Positions 52,679-64,000 of a stretch of DNA of 64,000 nt are shown piece by piece. Numbering within the stretch: position 1 is the first letter of the stretch; every line of letters begins with the position of its first letter. Below the pieces are notes generated by a model. The model saw nothing but the letters and a program-made list of their open reading frames with translations, had not been told where the DNA came from and did no database searches. The stretch spans positions 124,001 through 188,000 of the forward strand of contig NZ_QPJK01000006.1 of assembly GCF_003337555.1 (NCBI RefSeq), written 5' to 3'. The translations under genes and the position numbers were made by a program. The DNA comes from Pseudorhodoferax soli (GTDB lineage: Bacteria > Pseudomonadota > Gammaproteobacteria > Burkholderiales > Burkholderiaceae_C).

Positions 52679-54640
52679 ATGACAAGCCCCTGGGCTGAAG
52701 ACTGCCGCGGGGCAGGGCCGGTGAATCCCCAGCTGCGTTCCTCGATCCGCCGTGCCGCCTGGAAGGGCGCAGCCTGGCTGGCGGCGCTGGCCTTCGTGTG
52801 CCTGAGCGGCGCGCTCGGCTACCTGAGTTTCGAGCGCCGCGGCGTGCACAACCTGCAGGCCGACGTGCGCCACCGGCTGGAACTGTTCTCTTCCGCCGTG
52901 GAGGGCATGATCCAGCGGCTCGAGGACGTGCCGGCCACGGTGCAGCTCAGCGAGGAGATCCAGCGCCTGTTCCATGCGCCGCGCCGGGCCGCGGTGCGCG
53001 AGCGGGCCGACCGCTACCTGCAGCGCCTGAACGCCTTCATGGGCGGCATCGCCATCTACGTGCTGGACGAGCGCGGCGCCATCGTCGCCTCCAGTGCCCG
53101 CACCGGCCTGGGCGCGCTGCCCGAGGACGACTTCTCCTTCCGCCCTTATTTCCAGGAGGCGCTGTCCGGCCGCGTCGGGCGGCACTTCGCGATCAGCCTG
53201 GTCGGCAACCGGCCCGCGTACTTCGTTTCGCACCCCATCCGCGACGGCGCCAAGGTGGTGGGCGTGGCGGTGATCATGATCAACCTGGACCCGATCAACC
53301 AGATCTGGGACATGCTGGGCGCGCCCGCGCTGCTGGCCGACACCAACGGCGTGGTGATCCTGTCGTCCGACCCCACCTGGACCTACACCACGCTGCAGGA
53401 TCTGCCGATCGAGCGCCGCGTCGACCTGCAGCTCAGCCGGATGTACAACCGCATGCCGCTGCCGCGCTTCCCGCTGGATGTGGAGCTCAAGGTCAACCCG
53501 GAGACGTTGTCCATCTACGGCAGCCTGCAGCGGACCAACCGTTACTTCGGCTTCCCGGAGATCGCGCAGATCGTCTCGGGCCGCAGCATCAACGGCATGG
53601 ACTGGCGCGTGATGCTGTTCACCGACGTGGACGGCGCGCGCCGCGACGCGGTGCTGGCCGGCGCCGTCTCGGCGACCGGTGCCGCCTTCCTGATCCTGCT
53701 GGTGCTGTTCGTGTTGCAGCGCCGGCGCATCCACCGCCACCGGCGCGAGTCCGAGCGCTTGCTGGAGCAGGCCAACCTCTCGCTGGAGCACAAGGTCGGC
53801 GAGCGCACCGCGGCGCTCACGCTGGCCAATGCGCAGCTCGTCAAGGAGGTGGCCGAACGCAAGCAGACCGAGGCCACGCTGCGCGCCACCCAGGGCGAGC
53901 TGGTGCATGCCGGCAAGATGGCGGTGCTGGGCCGCATGGCCGCCGGCATCACGCACGAGCTCACGCAGCCGCTGGGCGGCGTGCGCACCTTCGCCGGCAA
54001 TGCCATGGAGTTCGCCAAGCGCCAGGACCTGGAGAGCGTGCAGCAGAACCTGGAGATCATCGCGCGGCTGACCGAGCGCATGGGCACCATCATCCACCCG
54101 CTGCGCAGCTTCGCCCGGCGCACCGAGCCCTCGCTCTGCTTCATCGACGTCGGCCAGTGCATCGCCAACGCGCTGTTCCTCTACCAGACGCAGATGGCGC
54201 ACCTGGGCGTGGTGGTGGACAACCGCACCGCGGGCGAGCAACTGCCGGCCTGGTGCGATGCGCACCGGCTCGAGCAGGTGCTCGTGAACCTGATCGGCAA
54301 CGCCATCGACGCGATGGCCGAGACCCCCGCCAAGCAGCTCACGCTGGTGGCCGAGCGCGCGCCTGCGGCCGCCGAGGCGATGGCCGCCGATGGCCGTGCC
54401 TACGGCCTGCGCATCGACGTGGAAGACACCGGCTGCGGCCTGCCGCCGGACTTCGCCTCGCACCAGTTCGAACCCTTCTACACCACCAAGCAAAAGGGGC
54501 TGGGCCTGGGCCTGACGATCTCGCGCGACATCGTGCAGGACTTCGGCGGTGCGCTGCGGGCCTGGAACCACGACGGGCCCGGCGCTTGCTTCAGCATCTA
54601 CCTGCCCTGCGCACCCCCATACGGAGAACAAGATGAATGA
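52679..54640 (+). CDS. dctB: DctB-type sensor histidine kinase
   Basis: A 653-residue membrane kinase: helix 1 (~28-48), a periplasmic double-Cache domain (~50-325, with 'DDFSFRPYFQEALSGRVGRH' and 'GRSINGMDWRVMLFTDV'), helix 2 (~335-355), a coiled coil, HisKA with His426 in 'RMAAGITHELTQPLGGVRTF', and HATPase_c with 'NLIGNAIDAM', 'DTGCGL' and 'GLGLGLTISRDIV'. This is the C4-dicarboxylate sensor family DctB. The response-regulator gene overlaps its end by 8 bp. No DctA or DctPQM gene is in the window, so the signal, probably an organic acid, is assigned by family only. Confidence 0.88.
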   Translation: MTSPWAEDCRGAGPVNPQLRSSIRRAAWKGAAWLAALAFVCLSGALGYLSFERRGVHNLQADVRHRLELFSSAVEGMIQRLEDVPATVQLSEEIQRLFHAPRRAAVRERADRYLQRLNAFMGGIAIYVLDERGAIVASSARTGLGALPEDDFSFRPYFQEALSGRVGRHFAISLVGNRPAYFVSHPIRDGAKVVGVAVIMINLDPINQIWDMLGAPALLADTNGVVILSSDPTWTYTTLQDLPIERRVDLQLSRMYNRMPLPRFPLDVELKVNPETLSIYGSLQRTNRYFGFPEIAQIVSGRSINGMDWRVMLFTDVDGARRDAVLAGAVSATGAAFLILLVLFVLQRRRIHRHRRESERLLEQANLSLEHKVGERTAALTLANAQLVKEVAERKQTEATLRATQGELVHAGKMAVLGRMAAGITHELTQPLGGVRTFAGNAMEFAKRQDLESVQQNLEIIARLTERMGTIIHPLRSFARRTEPSLCFIDVGQCIANALFLYQTQMAHLGVVVDNRTAGEQLPAWCDAHRLEQVLVNLIGNAIDAMAETPAKQLTLVAERAPAAAEAMAADGRAYGLRIDVEDTGCGLPPDFASHQFEPFYTTKQKGLGLGLTISRDIVQDFGGALRAWNHDGPGACFSIYLPCAPPYGEQDE

Positions 54641-56012
54641 CGAGATGACCGTGCTGCTGGTCGAGGACGACCCCGACATGCAACTGGCCTGCCGCCAGGC
54701 GCTCAGCCTGGCGGGCATCCGCTCCCGGGCGCTGGACGCGGCCGAGCCCGCGCTGCCCATCATCACGCCGGGCTACCGCGGCGTGGTCGTCACCGACATG
54801 CGGCTGCCCCAGGGCGACGGCCTCAGCCTGGTGAAGTACGCGCGCAGCGTCGATCCCGAGCTGCCCTGCATCATGATCACCGGGCATGGCGACATCAACC
54901 TGGCCGTCGATGCCATGCGCGAGGGGGCCTACGACTTCATCACCAAGCCGTTCTCGCCCGAGAAGCTGGTCGATTCGGTGCGGCGCGCGCTGGACAAGCG
55001 GCGCCTGGCCCTGCAGGCCGGCCAGGCCCGGTCTGCACCGGCACCCGCGGCGGGCAAGGGCAGCGATGGCCTGGGCCGTCTGGTGGGCTCATCGGCCGGC
55101 ATGCAGGCCGTGCGGCGGCTCATCGCCGAGATCGCCGCCTCGCCCGTGGACGTGCTCGTGCACGGCGAGACCGGCACCGGCAAGGAACTGGTCGCGCAGT
55201 CGCTGCACGAACTCTCGGGCCGCAGCAGCGGGCCCTTCGTCGCGCTCAACTGCGGCGGCATGCCCGACAACCTGCTGGACAGCGAACTGTTCGGCCATGA
55301 GGCCGGCGCCTTCACGGGTGCGCAGAAGCGGCGCATCGGCAAGATCGAGCATGCCAGCGGTGGCACGCTGTTCCTGGACGAACTGGAGAGCATGCCCATG
55401 GGCATGCAGGTCAAGCTGCTGCGGGTGCTGCAGGAGCGCAAGCTCGAGCGGCTGGGTTCCAACACCTCCGTCGCGGTGGATGTGCGCGTGGTCGCCGCGA
55501 CCAAGGAGAACCTGGTCGAGAAGGCGCGCAGTGGCCAGTTCCGGCTCGACCTGTACTACCGGCTCAACGTGGTCACTGTCGACCTGCCGCCGCTGCGCCG
55601 GCGCACCGATGACATCGCCGAGCTGCTCGCGCACTTCTTCGTGCTGGCCGCCAGCCGCTTCGGCCGGCCGGTGCCGCCGGTCAACGCCGACCTGCTCGAG
55701 CGGCTGGCCGGCTACGCGTGGCCCGGCAACGTGCGCGAGTTGCGCAACCTGGCCGACTGCATCGCGCTGGGCGTGTCCACGCCGCTGCTAGGCGCGACGC
55801 TGCAATACGCCTCCAGCGAGCTGGCGTCGCCGCGTTCGCTGGCCGAATCGGTGGAGGAGTACGAGCGCAAGCTGATCCTCGAGGAGCTGCAGCGCAACGA
55901 CGGCAGCCTGGCCCGCAGCGCGCGTGCGCTGCGCGTGGCCAAGACCACGCTGAACGACAAGATCCGCCGTTACGGCATCAGCGTGGCACCGGCGGAGCCG
56001 CGCGAAGGTTGA
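54633..56012 (+). CDS. dctD: DctD-type sigma54-dependent response regulator
   Basis: A 459-residue NtrC-family activator: receiver domain with phospho-acceptor Asp55 in 'VVVTDMRLPQGDG' and Lys in 'FITKPFSPEKL'; AAA+ domain with Walker A 'GETGTGKE', the sigma54-contact loop 'GAFTGAQKRR', Walker B 'GGTLFLDELESM' and 'WPGNVRELRN'; and a C-terminal Fis-type helix-turn-helix ('GSLARSARALRVAKTTLNDK'). It activates sigma54 promoters when phosphorylated by the co-encoded DctB-like kinase. Start 54633 lies within the dctB end, giving translational coupling. Confidence 0.9.
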   Translation: MNDEMTVLLVEDDPDMQLACRQALSLAGIRSRALDAAEPALPIITPGYRGVVVTDMRLPQGDGLSLVKYARSVDPELPCIMITGHGDINLAVDAMREGAYDFITKPFSPEKLVDSVRRALDKRRLALQAGQARSAPAPAAGKGSDGLGRLVGSSAGMQAVRRLIAEIAASPVDVLVHGETGTGKELVAQSLHELSGRSSGPFVALNCGGMPDNLLDSELFGHEAGAFTGAQKRRIGKIEHASGGTLFLDELESMPMGMQVKLLRVLQERKLERLGSNTSVAVDVRVVAATKENLVEKARSGQFRLDLYYRLNVVTVDLPPLRRRTDDIAELLAHFFVLAASRFGRPVPPVNADLLERLAGYAWPGNVRELRNLADCIALGVSTPLLGATLQYASSELASPRSLAESVEEYERKLILEELQRNDGSLARSARALRVAKTTLNDKIRRYGISVAPAEPREG

Positions 56013-56040: not shown

Positions 56041-56059
56041 GCGGGCTTCAGCAGCCCGC
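56041..56059. terminator. Hairpin at the convergent dctD/rhombosortase ends
   Basis: GCGGGCT (56041-56047) and AGCCCGC (56053-56059) form a 7-bp stem with a 5-nt loop that covers the rhombosortase stop codon. No T-run is present on either side, so termination would be weak. Confidence 0.3.
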
Positions 56060-56656
56060 GCGGTCGTGGCGCCAGCTGCGCAGGCGCTGCGGCGCGGCCA
56101 GCATCAGCGCGGCGCAGGCCAGGCCGAACACATGGGCCTGCACGATGATGTTGCCGCCCACCAGGGCTTCCTCGTGCCGGTCCGGCCCGCGGATCAGCTG
56201 GGCACCGAGCCAGGCGGCGATGGTGCACAGCGCCGCGATGCTCACCGGATCGAGCCGGCGCACGCCTGGCCACAGCGCCAGCAGGAACAGCCCGTACAGC
56301 ACGCCTGACAGGCCGACATAGTGGGCCAGCCCGGGCAGCAGCAGCACGAACAGCAGCGAGATGCCCAGCGCCAACACGGCCACCTGGCGCAGCAGCACGC
56401 GCGGCGCCGGTGGCGCGTCGGCCAGCAGCACGCAGACCAGCAGGCCGAGCGCGTTGAGCGCCCAGTGGGTCCAGCCCAGGTGGACCAGGTGGCCTGTCCA
56501 CAGACGCCAGAGTTCGCCCTGCAGCACGGCGCCGCGCTCGTAGCGCAGCACCTGCAGCCAGGCCTCGGGCAAGGCCTGCAGCGCGCCCAGCAGCAGGCCG
56601 GCCACGGCCACGGTGAGGAGGGTGCGCCGCGGGGCGCGTGCAGGGGCGGTTGGCAT
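56048..56656 (-). CDS. rrtA: Rhombosortase (rhomboid-family protease for GlyGly-CTERM proteins)
   Basis: A 202-residue integral membrane protein with about six helices. The rhomboid catalytic dyad is visible: Ser117 in 'HYVGLSGVLYGLF' and His175 in 'IVQAHVFGLACA'; 'GHLVHLGWTHWALNALGLLV' is the conserved early motif. Its short, six-helix form and motif wording are those of rhombosortases, which cleave the GlyGly-CTERM tail of exported proteins. Two proteins with such tails are encoded in the same minus-strand run (57654-60113 and 62079-64000), which strongly supports the assignment. It is the last gene of the run, 24 bp after the binding-protein gene. Confidence 0.88.
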   Translation of the reverse strand: MPTAPARAPRRTLLTVAVAGLLLGALQALPEAWLQVLRYERGAVLQGELWRLWTGHLVHLGWTHWALNALGLLVCVLLADAPPAPRVLLRQVAVLALGISLLFVLLLPGLAHYVGLSGVLYGLFLLALWPGVRRLDPVSIAALCTIAAWLGAQLIRGPDRHEEALVGGNIIVQAHVFGLACAALMLAAPQRLRSWRHDRAGC

Positions 56657-56680: not shown

Positions 56681-57586
56681 TCAGTCGACGGCGTAGGCTT
56701 CCTTGGGCTTGTCGTTCAGGTTGGCCCAGGCGGCGCGCGTGGCGGCGGACGCCGGCATGTTCAGCGCCGTGTTGGTCGGCGGGATCGGCTGCATGAACCA
56801 CTTGTCGTAGAGCTTGGCCACGGTGCCGTCCTGCACCTGGCGCGCAATGCTGGCGTCCACGGCCTTCTTGAAGGCCGGGTCGTCCTTGCGCAGCATGATG
56901 GCGATGGGCTCGACCGACAGCGGCTCGCCGACCAGCTTGTAGCCCTTGGGGTTCTTGGACCGCGCGATGTTGCCGGCCAGGATCTGCCCGTCCATCACGA
57001 AGGCATCGGCGCGGCCCGATTCCAGCAGCAGGAAGCTGTCGGAATGGTCCTTGCCCGAGAGCTCGCGGAAGTTCATGCCCTGTGCGCGCTTGTTCTGGCG
57101 CAGCAGCTGCACCGAGGTGGTGCCGGTGGTGGTGGCCACGGTCTTGTCGTTGAGATCGGCCACGGACTTGATCGGCGAGTCGGCCCGCACCGCGATGCGC
57201 ACCTCTTCCACGTACAGCGTGTTGGCGAACGCCACTTCCTTGGCGCGGTTGGCGTCGTTGGTGGTGGAACCGCACTCGATGTCCACCGTGCCGTTCTTGA
57301 GCAGCGGGATACGGTTGGCCGAGGTCACGGGCTGGTACTGGATGGTCAGTTCGGACAGGCCCAGCTGGCGCCGCACGTCGCTGATGATGTTGCTGCAGAC
57401 GTCGTAGTGGAAGCCGGTGTAGACGCCGGTGCCCAGCGTGTAGGCCAGCGCGCCCGAGGATTCGCGCACGCCCTGCACGATGGTGCCGGAGCTCTTGATC
57501 TTGGCCAGGGTGTCCGTGGTCTGGGCCTGGGCGCCGGCCACGGCGGCCAGTAGCGTGCAGGCCAGGGAAAGGGTGGAGAGTTTCAT
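56681..57586 (-). CDS. Amino-acid-type ABC transporter binding protein (family 3)
   Basis: A 301-residue periplasmic protein: signal peptide to 'AGAQAQ' (residue ~22), then 'LAKIKSSGTIVQGVRESSGA', 'IQYQPVTSANRIPLLKNGTV', 'DIECGSTTNDANRAKEVAFA', 'TVATTTGTTSVQLLR' and 'PIAIMLRKDDPAFKKAVD'. It is of the GltI-like type that binds acidic or polar amino acids. It is clearly paralogous to the C-terminal half of the fusion encoded just upstream (shared 'SANRIP/QNRIP' and 'ECGSTT' motifs). No permease or ATPase gene is nearby. Confidence 0.9.
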   Translation of the reverse strand: MKLSTLSLACTLLAAVAGAQAQTTDTLAKIKSSGTIVQGVRESSGALAYTLGTGVYTGFHYDVCSNIISDVRRQLGLSELTIQYQPVTSANRIPLLKNGTVDIECGSTTNDANRAKEVAFANTLYVEEVRIAVRADSPIKSVADLNDKTVATTTGTTSVQLLRQNKRAQGMNFRELSGKDHSDSFLLLESGRADAFVMDGQILAGNIARSKNPKGYKLVGEPLSVEPIAIMLRKDDPAFKKAVDASIARQVQDGTVAKLYDKWFMQPIPPTNTALNMPASAATRAAWANLNDKPKEAYAVD

Positions 57587-57653: not shown

Positions 57654-60113
57654 TCATTGCAGCGGCCTGTCGTTGGGGTTGGCGAACAGCTCCAGCACGT
57701 CCTGCGACGGGGGCCAGTTCAGGTTCAGGCCCTTGGTGGTGATGGGCCGCTCGAACCACTTGCGGTACAGGGCCAGCAGCTCGCCCGTTTGCATGAGCCG
57801 CGCGATCTCCTGGTCGACGATGCGCTTGAGCTGCAGGTCGTCCTTGCGCATCATGCAGCCGTAGGCCTCGCGCGTCATGGGCTGGCCGACGACGGTCCAG
57901 TCCAGTGGCTGCTGGGCCTTGGCGCGCTCGCCGTAGAGCAGGGCGTCGTCCATCATGAAGGCGTCGGCCTGGCCGCGCTCCAGCGTGCCGAAGGATTCCT
58001 CGTGCTCGCGTGCCGTGAGGATCTGGAACTTGAGCCCGGAGGATTCGGAGAAGGTGCGGATCAGCCGCTCGGAGGTCGTGCCCGAGGTCACCACCACGCG
58101 CTTGCCGGCCAGGTCCCTGAAGTCGTGGATGCCGGAGTCCCGGTGCACCATGAGCCGCGTGCTGATGACGAAGAACGAGGTCGAGAACAGCACCTGGCGC
58201 GCGCGTTCCAGGTTGTGCGTGGTGGAGCCGCATTCCAGGTCGACGTTGCCGCTGACCACCATGGGGATGCGGTTCTGCGCCGTCACCGGCACCAGCTTGG
58301 TGGTCAGCGCGGGCAGCTGCAGTTCATGCCGGATGGCCTGCGAGACCAGCGTGGACAGGTCGTGCGCATAGCCGACCACCTGCTTGCGCGAGTCGTAGTA
58401 GGAGAAGGGCACGGACGACTGGCGGTGGCCCAGCGTGATGGTGCCGGTCTGCTGGATCTTGCGCAGCGTCTCGCTGGCCGATGTGGGCGCGCCACACAGC
58501 AGCGCCAGCGCGGCCGCGGCCGGCGCCAGCAAACGGCGCCGCTTGCCCAGCAGGAGCGCCAGCAGCGCCAGCAGCGGCCAGGAGGCCGCGCCGCCGCCGC
58601 CGGATGTGCCGTCCTGCGATTGGGGTTGCTCGGGCGCCTGCGCGGCGGCCACCGCCATGCCCGCGTCGAGCAGGCCGGCGCCGCAGGCCTGCGTGGTGCA
58701 AAAGCAGGTGCCCGGCATGCCCGGCTCGCAGACCGGATGGCCGGCCACATGCGGGCGGGCCTGCTGCTGCAGCAGCGCACGCAGAGCGGCCGGGTCCAGG
58801 GCGGGATCGGCCGCCAGCGCGAGCGCGGCCACGCCGGCCGCCAGCGGCGCCGCGAAGCTGGTGCCGGCGCCGTAGGCATGGATGTGCTGCGCGGCCACCG
58901 TGCGGCCGCTGTTGGACAGCGACCAGATGCCGTCGGCCGCCGTGCCGCCCGGGGCCAGCAGGCCCACGGCCGGGCCGAAGTTGGAGTAGTCGGCCTTCAG
59001 GCCGTTGCGCTGCGCCGCCGCGACGGCCAGCACGCCGCGGCAGTCGGCCGGCCGGCCGACGCTGCCGCCGCTCTCACCCGGCAGGCGGTTGCCGGCCGCG
59101 GCCACGATCAGCGCGCCCTGCGCACCGACCTCGTCGACCACGCGCTGGTACAGCGGCGAGCAGGCCGCATCGCCCTCGAAGCTCAGGTTGATGATGCGGG
59201 CCGGGTGTGGGTTGGCGGGCACGCCGGCGACGGGCAGGCCGGCGGCCCAGCGCACGGCGTCGAGCAGGTCGCTGAGCAGCGCGCCGCACTTGCCAGCGGC
59301 CCGCACCGGCAGGATGCGTGGCCGCGCGCCCAGCAGGCCCGCGGTGCCGATGCCGTTGCCGGCGCGTGCGCCCAGCTGGCCGGCGATGAAGGTGCCGTGC
59401 CAGCTGCTGTCGGCCGCGTCGCAGCCTGCGAACGCACCGTTCACGCGGGCCGCCTCGGCCGGCGTGACCCAGTCGCCCGGGTCGGTAGGGTCGGCATCGC
59501 GGCCGTCGCCGTCGTTGGCGTAGGCGAGGCCGAAGTAGGGATCGGCGGAGACGAAGTCGTAGCCCGGCAGCAGGGCGCCCTGCAGCTCGGGGTGGCCGGG
59601 CAGCACGCCGGTGTCGACCACGGCGACGACCACGTCCGTGGCCGGCACACGGGCCCAGGCGCGCTCGGCGTCGATGGCCGCTGCAGCGCCGGCCGAGGGG
59701 GGCTGCAACTCCCATTGCCGGGGAAATTCGGGATCGGTGACGGCGCTGGCGAGCCGGATGCGCACATTGGGCTCTACATGGCGCACGGCAGGGTCGGCCG
59801 CCAGGCGGGCGCGTTCGCGCTCGGCATCCTGGCTGTCCAGCGGGCGTTCGGCGCGCAGCACCAGCCGCGTCGGCCCCGAGCGTTCGCGGTCGACCGCATA
59901 GCCGCCGAAATGCGTGCGCGGTGCGCCAGCGTCGCTGCCCGGCGCGGCGCGGCGCTGGGCGCTCTGGGCCGTGTCGGCATCGCGCGCCGCGGCGGGTGGT
60001 GCCGCTTCGTGCAGCTCGACGATGAAACCTGCGGCCGGCCGGGCGTGGCCAGGCAGCGCGGTGGCCAGGCTCGCGGCAGTGAGCAGCAGTGCAAGAGGGG
60101 AAAGAAATCGCAT
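57654..60113 (-). CDS. S8 serine protease with GlyGly-CTERM tail fused in frame to a second signal peptide and an amino-acid-type binding protein
   Basis: One 819-residue frame encodes two exported proteins. Residues 1-~25 are a signal peptide, ~28-118 a propeptide-like region, and ~130-490 a subtilisin-type domain with Asp167 ('VAVVDTGV'), His239 ('SSWHGTF'), Asn341 ('VAAAGN') and Ser419 ('GAGTSFAAP'). Residues ~504-527 are a GlyGly-CTERM tail: Gly505-508, a hydrophobic helix, then KRRR. No stop follows: residues ~524-546 read as a new signal peptide ending TSA, and ~547-819 are a family-3 binding protein like its neighbour. A TTG at 58532 could start the second part separately. A lost stop or sequencing error is the alternative. 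Confidence 0.85.
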   Translation of the reverse strand: MRFLSPLALLLTAASLATALPGHARPAAGFIVELHEAAPPAAARDADTAQSAQRRAAPGSDAGAPRTHFGGYAVDRERSGPTRLVLRAERPLDSQDAERERARLAADPAVRHVEPNVRIRLASAVTDPEFPRQWELQPPSAGAAAAIDAERAWARVPATDVVVAVVDTGVLPGHPELQGALLPGYDFVSADPYFGLAYANDGDGRDADPTDPGDWVTPAEAARVNGAFAGCDAADSSWHGTFIAGQLGARAGNGIGTAGLLGARPRILPVRAAGKCGALLSDLLDAVRWAAGLPVAGVPANPHPARIINLSFEGDAACSPLYQRVVDEVGAQGALIVAAAGNRLPGESGGSVGRPADCRGVLAVAAAQRNGLKADYSNFGPAVGLLAPGGTAADGIWSLSNSGRTVAAQHIHAYGAGTSFAAPLAAGVAALALAADPALDPAALRALLQQQARPHVAGHPVCEPGMPGTCFCTTQACGAGLLDAGMAVAAAQAPEQPQSQDGTSGGGGAASWPLLALLALLLGKRRRLLAPAAAALALLCGAPTSASETLRKIQQTGTITLGHRQSSVPFSYYDSRKQVVGYAHDLSTLVSQAIRHELQLPALTTKLVPVTAQNRIPMVVSGNVDLECGSTTHNLERARQVLFSTSFFVISTRLMVHRDSGIHDFRDLAGKRVVVTSGTTSERLIRTFSESSGLKFQILTAREHEESFGTLERGQADAFMMDDALLYGERAKAQQPLDWTVVGQPMTREAYGCMMRKDDLQLKRIVDQEIARLMQTGELLALYRKWFERPITTKGLNLNWPPSQDVLELFANPNDRPLQ

Positions 60114-60216
60114 GGACAGCAGGCAAGAACAGATCGGCCGCTCCGGCCGGCGCGCAGGCTGTCCACGCGCACCGGCCGGGCGGGGCACCGCGCAGTGGCG
60201 GTGCGTTCTCAGGTGC

Positions 60217-62010
60217 TCAGAAGGGCACCACGCAACGGGCGGTCGCGTCGGTCGGCCGGGCCGTGGGCACCATCGTCACGAAGCTGGCCGGCGTGCCGTA
60301 GACCATGCGCCGCTGCGCATAGGCTGCGGCAGCGCCGGTGCCGGTGCCGATCACGAAGTGCTTGAGGATGCCGTCGGACGGATCGATGTTGGAGAACGGG
60401 GCGGCTTTCGCCACGCAGGCCGCGGTGCTGACCGCGGCGGGGCGGTCGAACGCGACGACTGTTCCCGGTCCCTTGACGTACAGGTACTGCACGGTCTGTC
60501 CGGCGCCCGTGCCCGTGGTGAGGCTGAAGTAGCGCCCCGACCAGATGCGCGAACGCGTGGCCTCGCTGAAGCCCGTCACCGCCTGCGCGCCCAGCGTGCT
60601 GCCCAGCTTGACCAGCCGCAAGCCCGACAGCGAGATGCTGCCGTCGGACTGGACGTGGGCCACGCCCGGGTTGCTCGGCACCGACAGGTTGCCGTTGAAG
60701 TCGATGGTCGTCGCGCCGAACTCCACCACGTCGGCATTGCCGGCGCTGACGGCGTAGCTGCCGACCTGCATGCCCACGTTGCGGGCCGTCTCCAGCGCGG
60801 TGGCGCTGCCGGTCTGGCGGTCGTTCTGGTAGTAGAAGCTGCTGTGGGCGTAGGTGCCGTCCTCGAACATCACCATGTACTCGGGCCGGCTCAGGCCCAT
60901 GGGGCGCACCCAGCCGCCGACCAGCGGGTTGCTGGCGCTGGCCACGCGGGTCAGGGCGGTGCCGTCCAGCGTCATGGCATTGCCCGAGACCGTGGCGCTG
61001 TGCGCGCCGGCGGCCGGGCCGCGCGCGTTGGCCGCTTCGATCAGTTCCAGCGTCAGCGTGGAGCCGCTCAGGCTGTAGCGGCCGTAGCGGTAGCCCAGGC
61101 CGTTGTCGAAGGCATAGTCGGCCCCGACCGGGGTGGCCACGACCTGGTGCACGAAGGTGCCGTCGCCGCCGAACAGGAACACCTCGCGCGTCGTGCCGTC
61201 GGTGCGGACCCAGGCCCCCTCGATGGGCTGGGCCGCCGTGGCCGCCTTGGCCTTGGCCGCACCGGCCAGCGTGGCGGCACTGGGCACCAGGCTGTCGCGC
61301 GTGGCCAGGAACAGCGACTCGCGCTGCTCGGGCGTCAGCGTGGTCGGGATCTGGTAGAGCAGCTGCTGCAGCGAGCCCGGCGCCACGGCGCTGTAGGCCT
61401 CGAAGGCGGCGCGGCTGCCGCTGCCCACTTCCGCAAAGCCGCGGGTGAGCAGCTGGCCCAGCGCCAGCATCTTCTGCTGCGCAGCGGTGGCCGTGGTGCC
61501 CTCGGCGGCCTGGTAGTTGTCGTAGAGCTGGATGCCGCCGACCTGGCCGGCCGTGCCGACCAGGAAGGACAGCAGCGTCTCCTCGGCCTGCGCCAGGTTG
61601 TCCGAGCGGCCCGAGTCGATCTCGGACTGCAGCAGCGTGGTGTAGGGCGTGATGACGGCGTGGCGGCCCAGCGGCGCGGTCAGCACGTAGGGTGCGACGA
61701 CCGGGCCTTCGGAGGTGGTGCTGGTGGTGGTGGCCTGCACCAGCACGACGGCGTCGGCGGCCTGCGTGGTGTTGATCGTGAAGCTGCCGTTGCTGGTCAT
61801 GGCCGACGGTTCGCTGGCGTCGCAGACGCGGTTGTCGTTCAGGTCCAGGCAGGCGGTGGCGTTGTTCAGGCCGCGGTCGAGCACGGTGCCGGTGACCTGG
61901 CGCTCGGCCGGGGCGGGCTCGTCATCGCCGCCGCCGCCGCCACAGGCGACCAGGAAGGTGGACGCGGCCAGGGCCAATGCCGAGAGCGCGTAGGTGTTGC
62001 GGGAATGCAT
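60217..62010 (-). CDS. Large exported lipoprotein of unknown function
   Basis: A 597-residue protein with a lipoprotein signal ('STFLVACGGGGG', acylated Cys23) and a Gly/Asp linker suited to surface display. Residues ~36-75 carry a small motif 'ACLDLNDNRVCDASEPSA' resembling calcium-binding 'DxNDN' loops found at the start of many surface lipoproteins. The rest is beta-rich with repeats of the type 'EGAWVRTDGTTREVFLFGGD' and 'VGGWVRPMGLSRPEYMVMFE', perhaps lipocalin-like or propeller-like units. I do not recognise a named family. It lies between the M14 peptidase and S8 fusion genes on the same strand, which suggests a role at the cell surface with them. Confidence 0.8.
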   Translation of the reverse strand: MHSRNTYALSALALAASTFLVACGGGGGDDEPAPAERQVTGTVLDRGLNNATACLDLNDNRVCDASEPSAMTSNGSFTINTTQAADAVVLVQATTTSTTSEGPVVAPYVLTAPLGRHAVITPYTTLLQSEIDSGRSDNLAQAEETLLSFLVGTAGQVGGIQLYDNYQAAEGTTATAAQQKMLALGQLLTRGFAEVGSGSRAAFEAYSAVAPGSLQQLLYQIPTTLTPEQRESLFLATRDSLVPSAATLAGAAKAKAATAAQPIEGAWVRTDGTTREVFLFGGDGTFVHQVVATPVGADYAFDNGLGYRYGRYSLSGSTLTLELIEAANARGPAAGAHSATVSGNAMTLDGTALTRVASASNPLVGGWVRPMGLSRPEYMVMFEDGTYAHSSFYYQNDRQTGSATALETARNVGMQVGSYAVSAGNADVVEFGATTIDFNGNLSVPSNPGVAHVQSDGSISLSGLRLVKLGSTLGAQAVTGFSEATRSRIWSGRYFSLTTGTGAGQTVQYLYVKGPGTVVAFDRPAAVSTAACVAKAAPFSNIDPSDGILKHFVIGTGTGAAAAYAQRRMVYGTPASFVTMVPTARPTDATARCVVPF

Positions 62011-62078: not shown

Positions 62079-64000
62079 TCAGAAGCTGCTGGCCGCGGCC
62101 TGCTTGCGGCGACGCTGCAGGGCCACTGCAGCCAGGCCGGCCAGTGCGGCGGCGAGGCCGCCGACGGCACCGCCACCGCCGCCGCTCTTGGCCTCGGCGA
62201 CTTCCAGGAACGCGGCCGACACGGCGCCCGGCTTGCCATCGCTGTTGGTGCCCTGCACATAGACCATGTGGCGGCCCGGTGCCAGGCCGGTCGTGTCGAT
62301 CTGGCCGAAGGCGCGCTTGGTCGCGTCCGGGAAGTCGGACTTGGCCTGGTCGGAGGTGCCCAGTTCGAGCGGCTTGCCTTCGGCGCCGGCCTCCCAGGGC
62401 ATCTGGTCGATGTAGACCTTGGCGTCGCGGATGTTGTAGACCACCGGGTAGGGCGGCGGCAGGATGCTGGCCTGGCCCGCGTTGCTGTAGCGGTAGCGGT
62501 TGTCGTCGACCAGCGCGGAGACGTTCACCTTCGTGCCGGCGGGCACGGCGGCGGTTTGCTCCACCTTCACGTCGACCGTGTCAGGGCCGAACGGCAGCTG
62601 GTAGACGCGGTGCAGTGCACGGCTCATGTAGTGGAAGCCGTTGAAGTTCTCCGGGTAGGTCTCGCGGTCGAACACGCCGCAGTCCTCGTAGAAGGAGCGG
62701 CCCATTTCCACCGTGTACGAGGGCGCGCCCAGGAAGCCGTAGAACGCGTCCTTGGTCGTGCCTTCGGTGTTGTAGCTGAGCAGCTGCTGCGACGAGTAGT
62801 TGTTGTGGTAGGCCAGGCGCTGGGCGATGACGGCCATGCCCTTGTTGTTGGGCGTGTGCGTGTTGAAGCCGTTCTCGGCGCGTTCGACGCCCCAGGGCCA
62901 CAGGATGGCGCGCGCGTTGCTGTGCAGGTCCACGAACATGCCGCCCGTGTAGTCCTCGGAGGCGCCGGTCTGCCAGTCGAGCTCGCCGGTGCCGTTGTTG
63001 GCACGGTTCTCGATGTTGCAGTACGGGCCGGGGGTGCCCACGAGAGGCTTGCCCGCGCTGTCAACCGCCCACTTGTTGCGGCCGTCCGGCAAGGCGCCGC
63101 CTTCCCAGCGGCACTGCGCCTGGTTCCAGGTGCCGCGCACGTAGTTCAACACGGCCTGCGTCTCGGGCTCGGAGGCCGGTCCGGTGCCGCGGAAGGTCTC
63201 GCCGCAGATGTTGCCGTCCGAGCCGCCGGCGCCGCCGGTGGCCCAGCCGAACGGGTAGTTGCGGTTCAGGTCGACACCCGAGCCGAGCTGGCCGTTCGTG
63301 CCCGTGGTGCACAGCGCCGTCAGGTAGTTGGTGTTCTTGCGCTGGCGGGCCGAGCGGTCCTGCTCGGCGAGCTTGCGGCCGTCCGGGTTGTGGATGATGA
63401 AGTGGTACTGGTTGTTGTCCAGCATCATCGTGGCGTTGGGGTCCTTGCCGTAGTTGTCCAGCAGCCACTCGATGAACTTGGTGCCGACCTCCTGCGGGGC
63501 GTATTCGCGGGCGTGGATGCCGCCGGTCCAAACCATGCGCGGCACTTCCTTGCCTTCCTGCTTGGCGAAGTTGCCGACCACGATGGCGCGCACGTCGTGC
63601 GGCTGGGCCGGGAACAGCGACAGGTTGAAGCGCTGCAGCAGGGCTTGCGGGATGAACTTGGCCAGCAGGCTGGTGTAGCTCGACCAGGAGTTGTCGTACT
63701 GGTTGCCGACGACGGTGGGCTCCTTGATCTGCGTCTTCATCCAGGCCGGGCCCAGCGTCTTGAGCTGCACCAGGTCGGGGTACTTGGTCTTGAGCTCGTC
63801 GAAGGTGGCGTAGGTCTGCTCCACGGTGCGGTAGCAGGAGTGCGTGCCGTCGGCGACCGAGCTGGGCTGCTCGCGCGAGGAGCGCTGCAGCGCGCCCGAG
63901 GCCTGGTCGCGCGAACGCGATGCGATGAAGTCCTTGATGCGCGCGGTTTCCTCCACGTCGATCTGCACGCCGATGCCCAGGGCCTCGACAGCGTGGAGTT
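62079..64000 (-). CDS. M14 zinc carboxypeptidase with GlyGly-CTERM tail (N-terminus outside window)
   Basis: The frame is open to the window edge, so at least 640 residues are encoded and the start lies beyond base 64000. The M14 metal and catalytic motifs are present: HxxE in 'GGIHAREYAPQE', the third ligand His in 'FVDLHSNARAILWPWG', and the catalytic Glu in 'SYTVEMGRSFYED'. A beta-sandwich domain follows ('TVDVKVEQTAAVPAGTKVNV'). The C-terminus has five Gly (near 62170-62185), a hydrophobic helix and RRRK, the GlyGly-CTERM pattern. It should be exported, cleaved by the rhombosortase encoded at 56048 and moved to the cell surface, probably by type II secretion. Confidence 0.9.
   Translation of the reverse strand, partial: LHAVEALGIGVQIDVEETARIKDFIASRSRDQASGALQRSSREQPSSVADGTHSCYRTVEQTYATFDELKTKYPDLVQLKTLGPAWMKTQIKEPTVVGNQYDNSWSSYTSLLAKFIPQALLQRFNLSLFPAQPHDVRAIVVGNFAKQEGKEVPRMVWTGGIHAREYAPQEVGTKFIEWLLDNYGKDPNATMMLDNNQYHFIIHNPDGRKLAEQDRSARQRKNTNYLTALCTTGTNGQLGSGVDLNRNYPFGWATGGAGGSDGNICGETFRGTGPASEPETQAVLNYVRGTWNQAQCRWEGGALPDGRNKWAVDSAGKPLVGTPGPYCNIENRANNGTGELDWQTGASEDYTGGMFVDLHSNARAILWPWGVERAENGFNTHTPNNKGMAVIAQRLAYHNNYSSQQLLSYNTEGTTKDAFYGFLGAPSYTVEMGRSFYEDCGVFDRETYPENFNGFHYMSRALHRVYQLPFGPDTVDVKVEQTAAVPAGTKVNVSALVDDNRYRYSNAGQASILPPPYPVVYNIRDAKVYIDQMPWEAGAEGKPLELGTSDQAKSDFPDATKRAFGQIDTTGLAPGRHMVYVQGTNSDGKPGAVSAAFLEVAEAKSGGGGGAVGGLAAALAGLAAVALQRRRKQAAASSF

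Follow-up and report, generated by a model that had tools for sequence, protein, structure and literature searches.

An S8 protease and a glutamate/aspartate-type binding protein in one reading frame, joined by a GlyGly-CTERM-like tail and a signal-peptide-like stretch

Bacterial polyproteins with an internal signal sequence are known, an example being the cytochrome b/c1 precursor FbcH of Bradyrhizobium, and viral envelope polyproteins carry stop-transfer/signal hairpins in the endoplasmic reticulum (ER). The frame described here, found in a stretch of 64,000 nucleotides that was analysed as a whole (the window), resembles FbcH in being one chain with an internal signal peptide, cut into two proteins in FbcH and predicted to be so cut here. 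It differs in that the first part of FbcH is a multi-span membrane protein and that FbcH has no sorting tail or rhomboid-type protease. With the viral hairpins it shares two short hydrophobic stretches joined by a short turn, the second of which is the signal for the next protein, whereas those hairpins are viral, belong to the ER and include no sorting tail.

Another group for comparison is that of the GlyGly-CTERM/rhombosortase proteins. In the available portion of Haft and Varghese 2011 (PMC3237569), the known GlyGly-CTERM tails are found at the very C-terminal end, a place that possibly matters for recognition, with the Gly motif outside and the basic cluster inside. VesB of Vibrio cholerae is cut by rhombosortase, with evidence for glycerophosphoethanolamine on the new C-terminus (PMC6219818, available portion), and the tail also functions autonomously when attached to other passengers (PMC13393428, available portion). 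The fused protein has the same elements as these proteins, namely a signal peptide, a protease, a Gly motif, a hydrophobic stretch, a basic cluster and a genomic rhombosortase, but its tail is internal, with 292 residues after it, where theirs are terminal (PMC3237569, same portion). Two MYXO-CTERM models also score this tail above their cut-offs, which likens it to MYXO-CTERM/myxosortase proteins; their motif, however, holds an invariant cysteine (PMC11980579, available portion), and cysteine is absent from residues 500-527 of the fusion. The mature binding protein is matched over its full length by the GltI/DEBP glutamate-aspartate binding proteins (PDB 2ia4, 2vha), which differ in not being joined to a protease.

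An internal GlyGly-CTERM tail that doubles as the start of a signal peptide is not described in the accessible text of the open-licence literature searched. If the fused protein is processed as proposed below, a rhombosortase signal need not sit at a protein's end, a sorting tail can double as a signal-peptide start, and the genes of two exported proteins can merge while both products are still exported. Among relatives, Comamonas has the two genes apart, the window has them fused, Leaf265 has a gutted fusion and three other genomes have a reduced form, which opens both fusion and loss to direct, stepwise study.

Layout of the fused frame

The frame runs on the minus strand from an ATG at 60113 to a TGA at 57654 without an internal stop. 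Its product consists, in order, of an S8 subtilase, a GlyGly-CTERM-like tail, KRRR, a second signal-peptide-like stretch ending PTSA, and a Glu/Asp-type binding protein. A sequence-only reading had already proposed one such frame at these positions, and both the frame and its coordinates are borne out, Pfam placing Peptidase_S8 at residues 160-452 and SBP_bac_3 at residues 559-788. Its features are as follows.

57654..60113, minus strand: fused frame, 819 codons plus TGA (open reading frame, Pfam)
60042..60113, minus strand: first signal peptide, residues 1-24, putative cleavage site placed by eye
58758..59636, minus strand: S8 catalytic domain, residues 160-452, with motifs AVVDTGV, WHGT, AAAGN and GTSFAAP
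58533..58598, minus strand: GlyGly-CTERM-like sorting tail, residues 506-527, ending KRRR (TIGR03501 score, hydropathy)
58476..58544, minus strand: second signal-peptide-like stretch, residues 524-546, with KRRR in common with the tail, ending PTSA (hydropathy, alignment; predicted cleavage)
58530..58532, minus strand: in-frame TTG, codon 528, directly after KRRR, a candidate internal start (ATG here in Leaf265)
57657..58475, minus strand: mature Glu/Asp-type binding protein SBP1, residues 547-819 (PRK10797, PF00497, 2ia4)

The first domain belongs to the S8 subtilases, with 148.9 bits against PF00082 and the Asp, His and Ser motifs in place. SBP1 scores 347.1 bits against PRK10797, under the curated cut-off of 375, and passes PF00497, so that we call it a family 3 binding protein that is GltI-like; its match to PDB 2ia4 has an E-value of 1.1e-91. 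Since random stops make up only about 1.6% of codons at this GC, the open frame alone is weak evidence; the other two frames reach stops 72 and 79 codons past KRRR. What weighs most is the retention of the frame over this junction in Leaf265, described below. A lipoprotein reading of the motif LALLC was set aside, as a lipobox is absent by eye.

The segment between the two domains is SGGGGAASWPLLALLALLLGKRRR. Cut out as a peptide, the tail QDGTSGGGGAASWPLLALLALLLGKRRR scores 20.1 bits against TIGR03501, GlyGly_CTERM (cut-off 15.5, model positions 1-22 of 22), and 20.3 bits against each of the MYXO-CTERM models TIGR03901 (cut-off 20) and TIGR03382 (cut-off 15.85). TIGR03501 does not appear when the full-length 819-aa protein is scanned at E <= 0.1, and a search of 120 family genomes with this model at E <= 0.01 gave one match, a terminal tail, and did not report the window genome; the match therefore stands for the cut-out peptide only, and a search that missed this genome is too insensitive to give a base rate of internal tails. 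The 15-residue hydropathy of the tail peaks at residues 508-509, and KRRR occupies residues 524-527. Of the 292 codons that come after, 273 encode the second folded domain, and with its tail thus internal the fused protein is not a standard GlyGly-CTERM member.

Directly from the tail continues LLAPAAAALALLCGAPTSA, after which the mature SBP begins with SETL at residue 547. Hydropathy here reaches the highest value in the protein (15-residue mean 2.14 at residue 528), and by eye the stretch has the parts of a Sec signal peptide, with KRRR as n-region, a hydrophobic core, and T-S-A before SETL. The earlier proposal of a KRRR-ended tail and a signal stretch sharing that KRRR is thus supported by profile score and hydropathy, with the GlyGly match confined to the isolated peptide. 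Its statement that the chain crosses the membrane twice needs correction: once the protease's own signal peptide is counted, the hydrophobic segments number three, and the chain would pass outward, inward and outward once more. An AlphaFold2 model of the fused protein resolves only the SBP, which folds well; the tail is mostly at pLDDT <50 and the signal stretch at about 50-60, and the hairpin is not seen in it.

The locus in the genus and in an outgroup

Four neighbouring genes serve for orientation in what follows.

56048..56656, minus strand: rhombosortase RrtA, the expected protease for GlyGly-CTERM tails (TIGR03902, 123 bits, cut-off 84)
56681..57586, minus strand: SBP2, a second, separate family 3 binding protein (profile matches including Pfam)
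60217..62010, minus strand: 597-aa protein upstream of the fusion, a synteny marker
62079..63968, minus strand: M14 carboxypeptidase whose true C-terminus is a Gly-rich/hydrophobic/RRR tail, a comparison tail (Pfam)

The rhombosortase that had been postulated as the cutting enzyme is present, as the second gene downstream of the fusion in the same gene run. It is one of two rhombosortases over the cut-off in the window genome, the other lying elsewhere in the genome, which also has a full-length T2SS secretin; these are the partners that such processing would call for. The M14 tail stays under every NCBIfam cut-off, its best score being 18.3 bits for MYXO-CTERM (cut-off 20), and the 597-aa protein has no Pfam or NCBIfam match.

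Six genomes of the genus were compared: the window genome (G000, 8.16 Mb), Pseudorhodoferax aquiterrae KCTC 23314 (G001), DE0202, which is filed as Variovorax boronicumulans (G002), Leaf265 (G003), Leaf267 (G004) and Leaf274 (G005). The full fusion occurs in one (window), a gutted form in one (Leaf265) and the SBP alone in three (G001, G002, G005), and Leaf267 has none of these forms; it keeps the M14, 597-aa and rhombosortase genes, but the protease, SBP1 and SBP2 find no match there at the same place. Among the matches listed for the literature on the genus, nothing concerned this locus.

In Pseudorhodoferax sp. Leaf265 the tail, ARRR, signal stretch and SBP are kept in one continuous frame across the same junction. 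That frame contains the protease signal peptide, a scrap DVVAVVDTGV with the Asp motif, SGGSAPGWPLPALLLLLGLRQARRR and MLAVAALALLGAAPALA, and then the SBP. Most of the protease is gone through two losses, one of 393 and one of 990 nt, each divisible by three and thus in frame (read from BLAST offsets, with the window as stand-in for the ancestor), and the smaller gaps near RRR likewise add up to threes. The remaining tail reaches no NCBIfam cut-off. The sequence-only reading had called for the same frame in relatives and had taken its absence from all of them as grounds for rejection; Leaf265 keeps the fused junction, but with the protease gutted, and the intact fusion is found in the window genome alone of the six.

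The protease-start ATG and the spacer upstream of it align in the window and in G001, G002, G003 and G005, and in G001, G002 and G005 the ATG that begins the protease in the window opens the SBP. It is the best-placed SBP start in those three, where in-frame starts past it give no charged n-region. A GTG at 60188, which would make an 844-aa form, is a less likely start: the matching GTG is out of frame with the ATG in G001 and G002 (68 nt), and in frame with it in Leaf265 (57 nt) and Leaf274 (72 nt).

Outside the genus, Comamonas sp. BIGb0124 (G027, locus L047) has the gene order M14, 597-aa gene, S8 protease, SBP. Its protease has its own Gly-rich tail and stop and its SBP has its own start, so that the genes are adjacent and separate, and the proteases of the window and BIGb0124 form a group of their own in a protein tree, separated from the paralogues with 100% support. 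As both genes lie there side by side and unfused, the fusion looks secondary, and separate genes, on the sequence of this one outgroup, probably came first. Insertion of the protease into an SBP signal peptide is less likely, because BIGb0124 has an orthologous protease in the same place.

In wider searches of 399 genomes of the family and 399 of the order, two sets that overlap, no second match covered both parts by itself at E <= 1e-122, a threshold that would miss a much more diverged fusion. Of the best 80 of 542 SBP-relative loci, taken from named genomes, BIGb0124 alone showed a match to the protease at E <= 1e-8 in the fetched stretch, and a close intact protease orthologue was not found in the genomes searched. 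Intact in one genome, the fusion looks like a young lineage oddity. Its distribution in the genus and the separate genes of BIGb0124 speak against a conserved function. In trees of flanking genes Leaf274 branches outside the other four (95 and 100%), with the M14 tree and the NtrC tree differing on its place; the order of the window, Leaf265 and G001+G002 is a near trichotomy, with three different groupings at 64, 51 and 83%. The concatenated tree included an SBP1 alignment with non-homologous codons before the mature part.

A proposed hairpin and its alternatives

We suggest that one chain is made, whose tail and second signal peptide would span the membrane as a hairpin (out-in-out) and be cleaved at each of its two periplasmic ends; we put the probability of this at roughly one half (0.52). 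The stop and spacer between the S8 protease and SBP genes would have been lost in a Pseudorhodoferax ancestor, as judged from one outgroup, and a single KRRR could serve both elements since a basic tail end and a basic signal-peptide start are interchangeable. The ribosome would start at the protease ATG and make the 819-residue chain, as the frame and the use of the same ATG for the SBP in three relatives suggest. The first signal peptide would export the protease, the tail would stop transfer with KRRR left in the cytoplasm, and KRRR with the next hydrophobic stretch would start transfer again and carry the SBP across. Cleavage after PTSA by signal peptidase I and at the Gly stretch by rhombosortase would then free both mature proteins and leave the hairpin behind. 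The two may serve to couple the digestion of protein to the capture of acidic amino acids, which is a guess. The protease part seems expendable, being intact at this place in none of the five other genus genomes. More tentatively, the tail and signal peptide may have merged into a truly bifunctional hairpin, cut on the same side by rhombosortase and signal peptidase I, in a polyprotein that yields a surface-sorted first product and a soluble binding protein at a fixed 1:1 ratio.

The alternative that survives best, though we consider it unlikely, is that the frames are joined and the SBP is nevertheless made mainly from an internal start near RRR, with the fused product as a by-product. A start-capable codon does follow RRR directly in both the window and Leaf265. 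In the window this codon, TTG 528, is the one in-frame candidate start (ATG, GTG or TTG) that lies between tail and SBP; it sits behind the KRRR charge, so that its product would begin MLAPAAAALALLCGAPTSA, without K or R, whereas 77 of the 78 SBP relatives counted have one within the first 12 residues (80 loci, 2 skipped, any candidate start allowed), and its anti-SD pairing is weak at -2.4 kcal/mol. In Leaf265, ATG codon 68 pairs at -5.7 kcal/mol against +0.1 for the upstream ATG, and a start at TTG codon 61 would yield MRQARRRMLAVAALALLGAAPALA, a well-charged signal peptide; to judge by these codons, the internal start is a stronger candidate in Leaf265 than in the window. Both Leaf265 losses, on the other hand, keep the frame of the upstream ATG, which would happen by chance in 1/9 of cases were the frame of no consequence, and is suggestive only. 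None of the four genomes computed shows a Shine-Dalgarno-like site before the upstream ATG itself (0.0 to +1.9 kcal/mol); the neighbouring genes pair at -5.9 (SBP2), -3.7 (RrtA) and -5.9 kcal/mol (597-aa gene). As a fused chain arises wherever the protease is translated to its end, the two routes could run together.

It is also conceivable, and to us more doubtful still, that the frame is a transit state without special function, in which the genes were fused when a stop was lost, either or both of the products function badly and the protease is being lost, as in the relatives. The protease is intact at this place in 0 of the 5 other genus genomes, and the near trichotomy (51-83%) implies that the changes fall close together. 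Third-position GC is moreover lower over protease residues 1-150 (0.79) than over residues 150-455 (0.94). Against this, the Asp, His, Asn and Ser motifs of the protease are all present in the window, and its branch of 0.54, compared with 0.60 for the unfused BIGb0124 orthologue, shows no rate excess. The constraint on the SBP is normal as well: dN/dS, computed from the mature part only, is 0.13-0.24 between the window and four relatives and 0.07-0.24 among the relatives, and the mature SBP is under purifying selection. By motifs and rates, both parts look functional.

That an assembly or sequencing error joined two genes is very improbable: the intact example is single and comes from one draft assembly, but the Leaf265 genome independently has the same continuous frame across the same junction, and the stretch with its own starts that precedes the BIGb0124 SBP is absent from the window junction.

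Surroundings of the frame

The 597-aa gene adjoins the M14 carboxypeptidase gene in all six genus genomes and at loci L047, L049 and L059 of other genera. Downstream, SBP2 comes after the fusion in the window and after SBP1 in G001, G002 and G005; it is missing in Leaf265 (L045, 5822-5928), where the rhombosortase lies directly after SBP1. Tail to tail with the rhombosortase, at 52679-56012 on the plus strand, are a sensor histidine kinase and an NtrC/AtoC-like sigma-54 response regulator, for which no curated cut-off was passed among the matches listed. Regulators 53-65% identical to it occur within a few kb of an SBP, mostly downstream, in loci of other genera, and the binding proteins may be part of a locus that senses and takes up acidic amino acids.

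Between the 597-aa gene and the start of the fusion, at 60114-60216, lies a GC-rich inverted repeat, GCACCGC..GCGGTGC, which is seen in the window, Leaf265, G001, G002 and G005 and is possibly a terminator or attenuator. All six genus genomes also have another S8 protease (loci L015, L016, L019, L020, L021 and L023), whose terminal tail is rich in Gly and Trp and ends in WRRRA or a similar sequence; in all six its Asp motif is AVLDVGV rather than DTG/DSG.
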